Translations under genes and position numbers: made by a program | Assembly: GCF_900114715.1 (NCBI RefSeq) | Contig: NZ_FOTY01000002.1 | Coordinates: forward strand, 1-64,000 | DNA from: Salibacterium qingdaonense | GTDB lineage: Bacteria; Bacillota; Bacilli; Bacillales; Marinococcaceae | Length of the DNA stretch: 64,000 nucleotides | Reading direction: 5' to 3' | Shown here: positions 35,186 through 37,333 of the stretch, piece by piece | Position numbering within the stretch: position 1 is the stretch's first letter | Layout: every line of letters begins with the position of its first letter | Notes under the pieces: generated by a model | Databases searched by the model: none | Seen by the model: the letters and a program-made list of their open reading frames with translations, nothing else | What the model was told of the DNA's origin: nothing

Positions 35186-36112
35186 ATCGCGGATTTTTTT
35201 TCGACCTATTCTTTTCGTGCGTTGTGGACTCCGGAACTTATAGTCGTTCTGGCTCTTACAGCTTTCATTTATTACAGTATAATTTTGAAAAAAAGGCATA
35301 ATTTCAAAGGAACGGACAAGTATTTTGTCCGCCGGAATATATACTTTCTGCTTGGTTTGGCTGCTTTGTATCTCGGTTGGGGCAGTCCATTGTATGTAGC
35401 AGGTCACTCTATTATTACACTCCATATGACACAGATGGTATTCGCCTACTTTGCAGCGGTGCCGTTGTTCATTCTCGCGATTCCGAAATGGCTCCTGCAA
35501 TCAGGAATCGATTGGTGGAGGAAAAAAGCGGAATGGATCTACCGTGTTTTGCTGCACCCGGTTATTGGTTTGATTACATTCAATGCTTTGTTTTCTTTTT
35601 ATCATATTCCCGTCGTTTTTGATGAAGTGATGCAGGCGCCGGTGATTCACAGTCTTTATCAGGGAGCGCTGTTTGCCTCCGCTTGGCTGATGTGGTGGCA
35701 CATGCTTTCACCGCTTCCATCCGGATATAAGCTCCCGGACCTGCGCCGGATTGTCTACATTTTTGCAAACGGTATTCTGATCACACCGGCCTGCGCGATG
35801 ATTATTTTTGCAGGCAGCCCGCTTTATGAAACGTATACGAATCCTGCTGTATGGTCGGAAGTAATGGCCTACTGCCTGCCGCCGGGCACTTCACCTCCGA
35901 CATCGATGATGAATGACGGGGCAGGCACGATGTCGTTTCTGGATGCTCATTCTGATCAGCAGCTGGCCGGGGTGGTTATGAAGATATCGCAGGAATTGGT
36001 GTATGTCACAACCATTGGATATGTATTCAAACAGTGGCTTGCCAAAGAACAGCCGAAAGAGGGAGAATGGACCATCAGCGATATCCCGGCCGATACAGAT
36101 CATTTAAAATGA
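35186..36112 (+). CDS. ctaG: Cytochrome c oxidase assembly factor CtaG
   Basis: About 308 residues with seven membrane helices. CtaG is needed to build the CuB site of caa3 oxidase in Bacillus. The N-terminal FRALWTPE, GWGSPLYVAGHSIITLHMTQM, NALFSFYHIPVVFD, ITPACAMIIF and AGVVMKISQE are family segments, with the likely metal ligands H and M. The start is odd. The family N-terminus (..FFSTYSFRALWTP) is in frame only back to a stop at 35162 and contains no ATG/GTG/TTG before TTG 35222. An ideal AGGAGG (35171-35176) sits 9 nt before ATC 35186, so AUC initiation is proposed. It lies next to SCO and a redoxin gene. Confidence 0.85.
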   Translation: MADFFSTYSFRALWTPELIVVLALTAFIYYSIILKKRHNFKGTDKYFVRRNIYFLLGLAALYLGWGSPLYVAGHSIITLHMTQMVFAYFAAVPLFILAIPKWLLQSGIDWWRKKAEWIYRVLLHPVIGLITFNALFSFYHIPVVFDEVMQAPVIHSLYQGALFASAWLMWWHMLSPLPSGYKLPDLRRIVYIFANGILITPACAMIIFAGSPLYETYTNPAVWSEVMAYCLPPGTSPPTSMMNDGAGTMSFLDAHSDQQLAGVVMKISQELVYVTTIGYVFKQWLAKEQPKEGEWTISDIPADTDHLK

Positions 36113-36137: not shown

Positions 36138-36761
36138 ATGAAGCGTATCATGCTATTGGCAGGTGCAGGGCTTTTGCTGGCGGTGCTTGGCGGCTGCGGC
36201 TGGTTGTATCAGATCGGCCAGCCGCAGGGAGCTCAGAATGGCAGCAGTTTGACGGACGCAGACCTGTCCCTCCCCTCCTTTTCCTTTACAAACCAGGACG
36301 GGGAAACAGTGACAAACGAGGATCTTCAAGGGGAGTACGTGATTGCTGATATGATTTTCACGAACTGTCCGACCGTCTGTAATACGATGACCCCGAATAT
36401 GCTCAACCTGCAGGGTCAGATTGAACAAGCAGGACTGGAAGACGTAAGAATGGTGTCATTCACAGTTGATCCAAAACGCGACGATCCGGAGACATTAACG
36501 AAGTACGGCCAAAACTACGGGGCCGATTTCAGCAACTGGGATTTTCTCACCGGCTATTCGGTGGAAGAAATCAAACAGTTATCGAAGAATTCCTTTCTAA
36601 GTGCATTGAACCAGGATACCGGTGACCAAAATATTATCCATGCAACCGCCTTTTTCCTTATTGACCCAAAAGGGAATGTCGTAAGAAAATACGATGGTCT
36701 GGAAAACGACACAGAACCTATACTGGATGACCTGAAACGTTTGACGCCCGTTAATCGGTAA
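36138..36761 (+). CDS. SCO1/SenC-family copper chaperone lipoprotein
   Basis: 207 residues. A signal peptide ends in the lipobox LGGC (C20). The thioredoxin-fold domain carries the copper site CPTVC (C77 and C81, in FTNCPTVC) and the distal histidine H168 (IIHATAF). SCO proteins load or reduce the CuA site of cytochrome oxidase subunit II on the outer membrane face. The gene is 25 bp after ctaG and 26 bp before the redoxin gene, so the three form one transcription unit for oxidase copper assembly. The ATG has AAGAAGGGTG upstream. Confidence 0.92.
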   Translation: MKRIMLLAGAGLLLAVLGGCGWLYQIGQPQGAQNGSSLTDADLSLPSFSFTNQDGETVTNEDLQGEYVIADMIFTNCPTVCNTMTPNMLNLQGQIEQAGLEDVRMVSFTVDPKRDDPETLTKYGQNYGADFSNWDFLTGYSVEEIKQLSKNSFLSALNQDTGDQNIIHATAFFLIDPKGNVVRKYDGLENDTEPILDDLKRLTPVNR

Positions 36762-36787
36762 CATTTGTACAGAAAGGAGGTGGGAAC

Positions 36788-37294
36788 GTGCGGTCACTGA
36801 AGAAATATACCGGGTTCCTTGTGATGACGGTGTTGGCAGTTTTGGCTGCCGCTGCCTGCGGACAGGAAGAAGGCGGTGGTGAGATGTCGCTGGATAACGA
36901 AAACTGGGAATCTGTCAACCTCGCAGATAAAGAAAACCCTACTGTGCTTTTTCATTTCACCGGTGTCAATTGAAGCCACTGTGTTTCGCAGCTCGTGCAG
37001 CTGCAGGAGAATATGGAATTGTTTGAAGACATGGAAGCTGATATTTATACCATCAGCAATGATTCCCCGGAAGCACATAAAGAATTAAAAGAGCAGATGG
37101 GTTTTACCTTTACCATGTTGTCTGATGCTTCCCTTGATGTTGTAGAAAAAGCCGATATGGCCGGAGAAGGAATGTCGGTAAGAGGCTACTCGGTCTTTAA
37201 TGGAGACGGAGAGCTCATCACATCACAAGAAGATGATTTATGGGGAACGAACATTGAAAGCACTGCTGAAAAAATAAAGAATGCATTAAATTAA
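36788..37294 (+). CDS. Thioredoxin-fold lipoprotein with in-frame UGA at the first CxxC cysteine; candidate selenoprotein
   Basis: 169 codons including the stop if TGA at 36971-36973 is read through. The start is GTG with AAAGGAGGTG. The signal peptide ends in AAAC (C24). The fold is redoxin/AhpC-TSA-like: ENPTVLFHFTGVN, then UGA, then SHCVSQLVQLQ, then ADIYTISNDSPEAHKEL and TFTMLSDASLDVV. The UGA is codon 62, exactly where family members have the first cysteine of CxxC, giving U-S-H-C. The frame is intact on both sides and has coding character throughout. A 6-bp hairpin follows at 36988-37004. Third gene after ctaG and SCO. Alternatives are a nonsense mutation or a base error. No Sec machinery is in the window. 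Confidence 0.7.
36988..37004 (+). promoter_or_regulatory. Candidate bacterial SECIS hairpin
   Basis: GCAGCT (36988-36993), loop CGTGC, AGCTGC (36999-37004). The stem starts 14 nt after the UGA at 36971-36973, and the loop G lies 22 nt after it. Bacterial SECIS elements have a stem soon after UGA and a G in the first two loop positions, both seen here. A competing hairpin, CTGTG/CGCAG with a TTT loop, overlaps its left arm, so the fold is not certain. Confidence 0.5.
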
Positions 37295-37299
37295 ACAGA

Positions 37300-37333
37300 A
37301 GCTGGCCCCGTAACATGGGACCAGCTCTTTTTT
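37300..37333 (+). terminator. Terminator of the ctaG-SCO-redoxin unit
   Basis: AGCTGGCCCC pairs with GGGACCAGCT, followed by CTTTTTT. Its position after the redoxin frame suggests that the full frame, not the part before the UGA, ends the transcript. Confidence 0.88.

Follow-up and report, generated by a model that had tools for sequence, protein, structure and literature searches.

The locus lies within the window (the whole 64,000-nucleotide stretch of Salibacterium qingdaonense DNA that was analysed, taken from a 3.5 Mb genome assembly of 68 contigs that is 99% complete). The following features are found there:

35222-36112, + strand: ctaG, cytochrome c oxidase assembly factor (caa3_CtaG, 321.4 bits; cut-off 279.35)
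36138-36761, + strand: gene for an SCO1/SenC-type copper lipoprotein, 26 nt upstream of the selenoprotein gene (SCO1-SenC, E 7.7e-34, and synteny)
36773-36780, + strand: Shine-Dalgarno-like AAAGGAGG (from the sequence)
36788-37294, + strand: very probable selenoprotein gene, for a 168-residue lipoprotein of AhpC-TSA/peroxiredoxin fold (from the sequence, translation through the TGA, profile and model)
36788-36859, + strand: signal peptide and lipobox AAA-C, with Cys24 (from the translation; Cys24 aligned in 75 of 81 rows)
36971-36973, + strand: in-frame TGA, very probably read as selenocysteine 62 in U-S-H-C (same column in 19/19 orthologues and 80/80 named loci)
36988-37004, + strand: bSECIS-like stem-loop of six pairs with the 5-nt loop CGTGC (from the alignment and a published rule)
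37299-37333, + strand: terminator-like hairpin, then a T-run (from folding; in the pattern scan the hairpin appears solely on the - strand)

The frame opens with a GTG at 36788, carries the single TGA as its codon 62, so that residues 62-65 read U-S-H-C, and closes with a TAA at 37292-37294. Translated with the TGA as Cys, the protein matches AhpC-TSA over residues 33-143 (65.1 bits, E 7.4e-18; cut-off 26), and the part after the TGA also does so by itself (38.2 bits, E 1.6e-9). The preliminary description had reported a frame broken by one TGA that gives U-S-H-C, together with a strong ribosome binding site, a lipobox and family sequence on both sides of the TGA, and all of these are seen again here, though the lipobox Cys is absent from its column in 6 of the 81 aligned rows and is clearly missing in three of the relatives (L093, L106 and L110). 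The terminator that it placed right after the stop fared less evenly; the hairpin and T-run are there, with a fold of -17 kcal/mol (z -2.94; 3 of 200 shuffles equally good), but the terminator pattern scan finds one site in the region against a shuffle mean of 2.2 and reports the hairpin on the opposite strand only.

A search of 61 genomes, the window's own and 60 relatives, gave 19 best matches at E 2.7e-20 or better, each with exactly one TGA, and all 19 in a common alignment column. Among named genomes a scan turned up 91 relatives, and the analysis covered the best 80; each of these 80 has exactly one in-frame TGA, always at the position seen in the window, and their titles include Salibacterium, Alteribacillus, Halalkalibacter, Alkalihalophilus, Cytobacillus, Neobacillus, Mesobacillus, Planococcus and others. 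That scan searched with two peptide patterns; since one was taken from the QLVQL stretch, where the hairpin is encoded, it could miss Cys forms. A profile search that covered 397 genomes from the order is independent of these patterns; its profile came from Sec forms, namely the 19 top-scoring matches of the relatives search, and rows were given down to about 47 bits. One in-frame TGA, in some cases with an end stop in addition, is present in 80 of the 81 rows at 59.9 bits or above, the exception being a C-terminal fragment in G166 (positions 106-168) that falls short of the TGA site. The position was checked in 30 of the 80 TGA rows, and in all 30, as in G111, the TGA falls on the UxxC site. 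Apart from the G166 fragment, rows without a TGA score 58.9 bits or less, and those that were read are other redoxins of the PrxQ, ResA-like and WCPVC types. As to whether homologues have Cys or Sec here, a point raised in the preliminary description, the TGA is kept in the relatives, and neither they nor the named loci nor the results of the 397-genome profile search, with its model from Sec forms, yielded a Cys form of the family. With the TGA read as Cys, Thr58, position 62, Cys65, Arg132 and Gly133 are identical in all 81 rows.

In a FastTree analysis of 81 family members with 16 other redoxins the family is grouped, with weak support (0.63). A search of 398 genomes of the phylum gave six rows outside the order, which were set aside as members of other redoxin families, one of them with a peroxiredoxin-type TPVU motif; plasmid relatives gave no match at E 1e-8. 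One member very like those of Cytobacillus (L092) comes from JAGGRA010000010.1, a record titled Pseudomonas sp. ISL-84 that is probably misnamed.

The TGA could in principle be a nonsense mutation or a sequencing error, with the locus a pseudogene or a source of only a short N-terminal lipoprotein. It had been argued beforehand that a random nonsense mutation would rarely hit this codon, and this holds good: chance placement is excluded because the position is conserved in 80/80 named loci (the best 80 of 91). After the TGA, dN/dS by the Nei-Gojobori method is 0.006-0.23 in 10 of 11 pairs (one pair was not computable, and the lowest value, 0.006, depends on saturated dS), and this purifying selection indicates that the second half is not decaying in the compared pairs. 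A decayed copy does exist in L042 of genome G011, where the TGA is kept, a TAA follows shortly after and the frame is lost; it is the one such copy seen among the matches in the 60 relatives, its genome still has selA, and it speaks for the pseudogene reading. The preliminary claim of a downstream half without decay, for which frameshifts in close strains were named as the contrary sign, accordingly stands for the 10 pairs under purifying selection and gives way at L042; G166, which has a C-terminal fragment alone, also counts against it.

The stem-loop lies 15-31 nt 3' of the TGA in 78 distinct sequences, with 20 nt from the TGA to the loop. Its positions pair in 99.4% of cells over these sequences; shuffling gives a mean of 95.5%, and sliding the stem at most 41.2%. 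Pair 36-46 is A-U in 39, G-C in 34 and G-U in 5 sequences and is never mispaired; it joins the wobble base of Gln68 to the first base of Leu72, both changes are silent, and its covariation gives a Fisher value of 8e-17, uncorrected and with shared ancestry ignored. Four of the six pairs are invariant and are uninformative because they never vary, and in 3 rows a further pair, 33-49, does not form. TTA is used for none of the 160 Leu codons in the stem, while elsewhere in these genes it is the commonest Leu codon (464 of 1434). In 78/78 distinct rows the second loop position is G, and the base after it is T in 77 of them and G in the other. The published bSECIS rule, as worded in the available text of PMC13188914, has a G (often then G/U) in the first two loop positions and a loop 16-37 nt from the UGA, and the stem-loop after the TGA fits it. 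The hairpin is singled out by the alignment alone and not by the z-scores of single-sequence folding, which are ordinary near the TGA (-0.31, -0.34 and -0.10), and the minimum-energy fold of the 42-nt stretch differs from the stem; these ordinary energies are the second point in favour of a pseudogene or an error.

Also present is a 99-codon ORF that starts at GTG 36995 and matches AhpC-TSA alone, so that the locus might yield two proteins, a short lipoprotein and, by restart at this GTG, a separate C-terminal piece. To judge from the predicted model, the restarted product would have neither Cys65 nor the opening strands of the fold. Thr58, position 62 and Cys65 are invariant over the junction in 81/81 rows, and the spacing from the lipobox to position 62 keeps to 35-40 residues in 19/19 orthologues; because of these invariant residues and this steady spacing the two-protein reading was rejected, and we regard it as extremely improbable.

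The presence of sel genes, another matter raised in the preliminary description, is clear, since selA, selB and selD are all found above cut-off in the genome along with a tRNA-Sec of 58 bits (cut-off 47), which ARAGORN also calls as SeC (tca). At a loose E-value, tRNA-Sec, selB and selD each match in 14/14 control genomes and selA in 4/14; therefore only matches above cut-off were counted, which in the same 14 genomes leaves 5 for tRNA-Sec, 2 each for selB and selD and 1 for selA. The genome's selD has an in-frame TGA of its own in the context KAGUGCK, which we take to be the position where Sec is known in SelD. Across the order, selA occurs in 180 of 397 genomes (about 45%); it is present in 76/76 genomes with a family TGA row as against 104 of 321 others, and, in the relatives set, in 19/19 genomes with a family match as against 13 of 42 without, shared ancestry being ignored in both comparisons. 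One relative (G015) has a second, apparently split selA copy at C1:3864654-3865911, with an intact selA far off on the same contig.

With the TGA conserved in the named loci and profile rows, the part downstream of it under purifying selection and selA in all 76 carriers, a pseudogene or sequencing error was rejected as very improbable. The conserved TGA, the co-occurrence with selA, the covarying hairpin and the purifying selection, together with the sel genes of the host, make it very probable that 36788-37294 is a genuine selenoprotein gene, as first proposed.

The structural model of the protein, based on 81 sequences, has a pLDDT of 88.6 and a peroxiredoxin fold (Foldseek E 2.3e-10); structure comparison (VIA) relates it to AhpE and PrxQ with Z up to 18.4 and an rmsd of 2.4 over 135-138 residues. 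All five profile alignments shown set the columns of the peroxiredoxin PxxxTxxC signature against the protein in one way, with Pro at Thr58, Thr/Ser at position 62 and the peroxidatic Cys at Cys65, and in all five Arg132 is aligned with the conserved peroxiredoxin Arg. The first reading had been of a thioredoxin-fold protein with the TGA at the first CxxC position. Its U-S-H-C is retained here, though the fold is peroxiredoxin-like and the TGA takes the place of the Thr of TxxC.

These likenesses raise the possibility that the same selenoprotein is mainly an extracytoplasmic peroxidase with no special tie to SCO, in which Cys65 (or Sec62) would reduce peroxides and the invariant Arg132 would have its usual place. 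That the nearest folds and sequences are PrxQ, AhpE and AhpC, and that Cys65 and Arg132 align as described, argues for this, as does the neighbourhood of most family members (see below); against it, PxxxTxxC is not kept, Pro having become Thr58 and Thr/Ser having become Sec62, and a UxxC pair is typical of thiol:disulfide oxidoreductases. We consider it a serious contender, a little short of an even chance.

Sec-containing Prx-like UxxC proteins (PF00578) and redoxin UxxC proteins (PF08534) are both listed in reviews, as far as the available texts of PMC13188914, PMC9312934 and PMC2398784 go, and in Table 1 of the first of these the UxxC proteins are named thiol:disulfide oxidoreductases. The closest known kind is that of the Prx-like thiol:disulfide oxidoreductase selenoproteins (UxxC/UxxU; 'Prx-like 1' of the GOS set), with PF00578 and UxxC in common according to the accessible parts of PMC13188914 and PMC2398784. 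The latter gives 225 Sec and 2,740 Cys forms for GOS Prx-like 1, while the window family, which is set apart from it here by description, consists of lipoproteins seen here under almost only Bacillales names and yielded no Cys form. The AhpC-TSA domain and the UxxC motif (position 62 and Cys65 in 81/81 rows) are both present, and by the rule of same domain and same motif, as found in the available text of PMC13188914, the protein would be assigned to the PF00578 UxxC group, as a new lineage within a known kind. Taking Thr58, Sec62, Cys65, Arg132 and the predicted fold together, we would place it with the Prx-like UxxC thiol:disulfide oxidoreductases. The 'redoxin family protein' selenoprotein (PF08534, UxxC) is also close, since the window protein has UxxC and matches PF08534 above cut-off (39.6 bits; cut-off 26.6), though below its AhpC-TSA score of 65.1, in a comparison by description only. 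The PrxQ/BCP, AhpE and AhpC peroxiredoxins share the fold, with Cys65 at the peroxidatic position and Arg132 conserved, but have PxxxTxxC where the window family has TxxxUxxC, and the Sec-peroxiredoxins in the available Table 1 of PMC13188914 have TxxU, with Sec at the other position of the motif.

Two NCBIfam models are related by name: the SelL-related NF040769, a redoxin with selenoprotein members, to which the window protein scores 22.3 bits (cut-off 120), and the TUGYCR thioredoxin fold (seleno)protein NF053656, a UxxC redoxin, which gives 21.8 bits (cut-off 100) with the Alkalihalophilus orthologue L065 and no match with the window protein at E <= 0.001. Neither the window protein nor any of the four relatives tried scores as high as the cut-off of an NCBIfam model. 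No description of the lineage was found in the available text of PMC13188914, PMC9312934, PMC1794560, PMC5029168, PMC2398784 and PMC12013277, and words beginning 'Bacill' are absent from the main text of PMC13188914 and of PMC12013277. A 2006 table gives three selenoprotein families with three proteins for Bacillales (PMC1794560, in the part available), and a member of the window family could be among these three.

In the clade of the window the gene directly follows ctaG and the SCO gene on the same strand, and the order ctaG-SCO-redoxin is found in 21/21 loci with upstream sequence (L072 is cut off); argC lies downstream in 22/22 loci of this clade, about 3 kb off in L062. Over the whole set, the ctaG-SCO neighbourhood is seen in 21 of the 80 named loci (the best 80 of 91). 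The 58 loci of the other clade (Cytobacillus, Neobacillus, Mesobacillus and others) show no ctaG, SCO or argC match in their flanks (up to 4 kb a side); their most widespread neighbour cluster covers 14 of the 58, at differing distances. CcmH-like genes occur in the flanks of two UDYC-type members, L076 (about 3 kb off) and L121. One could suppose from this that the selenoprotein chiefly serves to reduce SCO/CuA cysteines when cytochrome oxidase is assembled. The conserved gene order, the CxxxC visible in the SCO protein of the window, which we take to be the SCO motif, and the two CcmH-like genes agree with such a role; the 58 loci without ctaG or SCO in their flanks tell against it and favour instead a peroxidase with no SCO tie. 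Such a chief role seems to us rather unlikely. The SCO link is a lineage trait, since it is found in the window clade and not in the 58 other loci, and therefore the general thiol/selenol or peroxidase function is kept as the core functional claim.

The preferred reading remains that of a selenoprotein whose most likely job would be thiol/selenol redox work outside the cytoplasmic membrane. SelB, guided by the hairpin just 3' of the codon, would insert selenocysteine at the UGA, and the product would be exported and anchored through its lipobox to the membrane's outer face as a lipoprotein of predicted peroxiredoxin fold with a Sec62-x-x-Cys65 redox pair. Sec62 may attack a disulfide, or may resolve the Cys65 sulfenic acid that peroxide reduction leaves; a membrane thiol donor would presumably then re-reduce the Se-S bond so formed. 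For the window clade a local role in keeping SCO/CuA cysteines usable is plausible, because the gene there directly follows ctaG-SCO on the same strand.

Bacillus relatives that carry the family are mostly aerobic. A Sec-only family in such culturable organisms would suit as a model for extracytoplasmic selenoproteins, and in annotation genes of this sort may pass for truncated genes or pseudogenes. Of the order's sampled genomes, about 45% have selA, yet the literature found, in the texts available, says little on selenoproteins of Bacillales. It is conceivable, if unlikely, that a Sec-only lipid-anchored redoxin is a main reason why many Bacillales keep selenocysteine, with selenium tied to aerobic respiration through SCO/CuA assembly in the clade of the window.

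Within the families searched, the selenoproteins seen in the genome are SelD, the window protein and a SelL-like redoxin only. The last of these, on another contig (L174:1538-2101; G000 C33, about 82,037-82,600), has the motif LRHPGUPYC, with one TGA after a likely GTG start, and scores 89.3 bits to the SelL-related NF040769 (cut-off 120). Two homologues of the FDH alpha subunit (G000 C37:44108-46114 and C19:33298-35346), one of them above cut-off, have no in-frame TGA. Between selD and selB sits a PhnCDE-like ABC transporter (L175:3941-6488), whose binding protein passes the cut-off of the phosphonate-type subfamily TIGR01098 (186 bits; cut-off 112) and stays below that of the putative selenate binding-protein model TIGR04553 (162 bits; cut-off 250); a part in selenium uptake is possible. 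Adjoining selB is a GT4 glycosyltransferase (L175:6566-7822), below cut-off both for SenB (88 bits; cut-off 300) and for a GPMC-system glycosyltransferase (221 bits; cut-off 400), which may possibly act in selenium metabolism.
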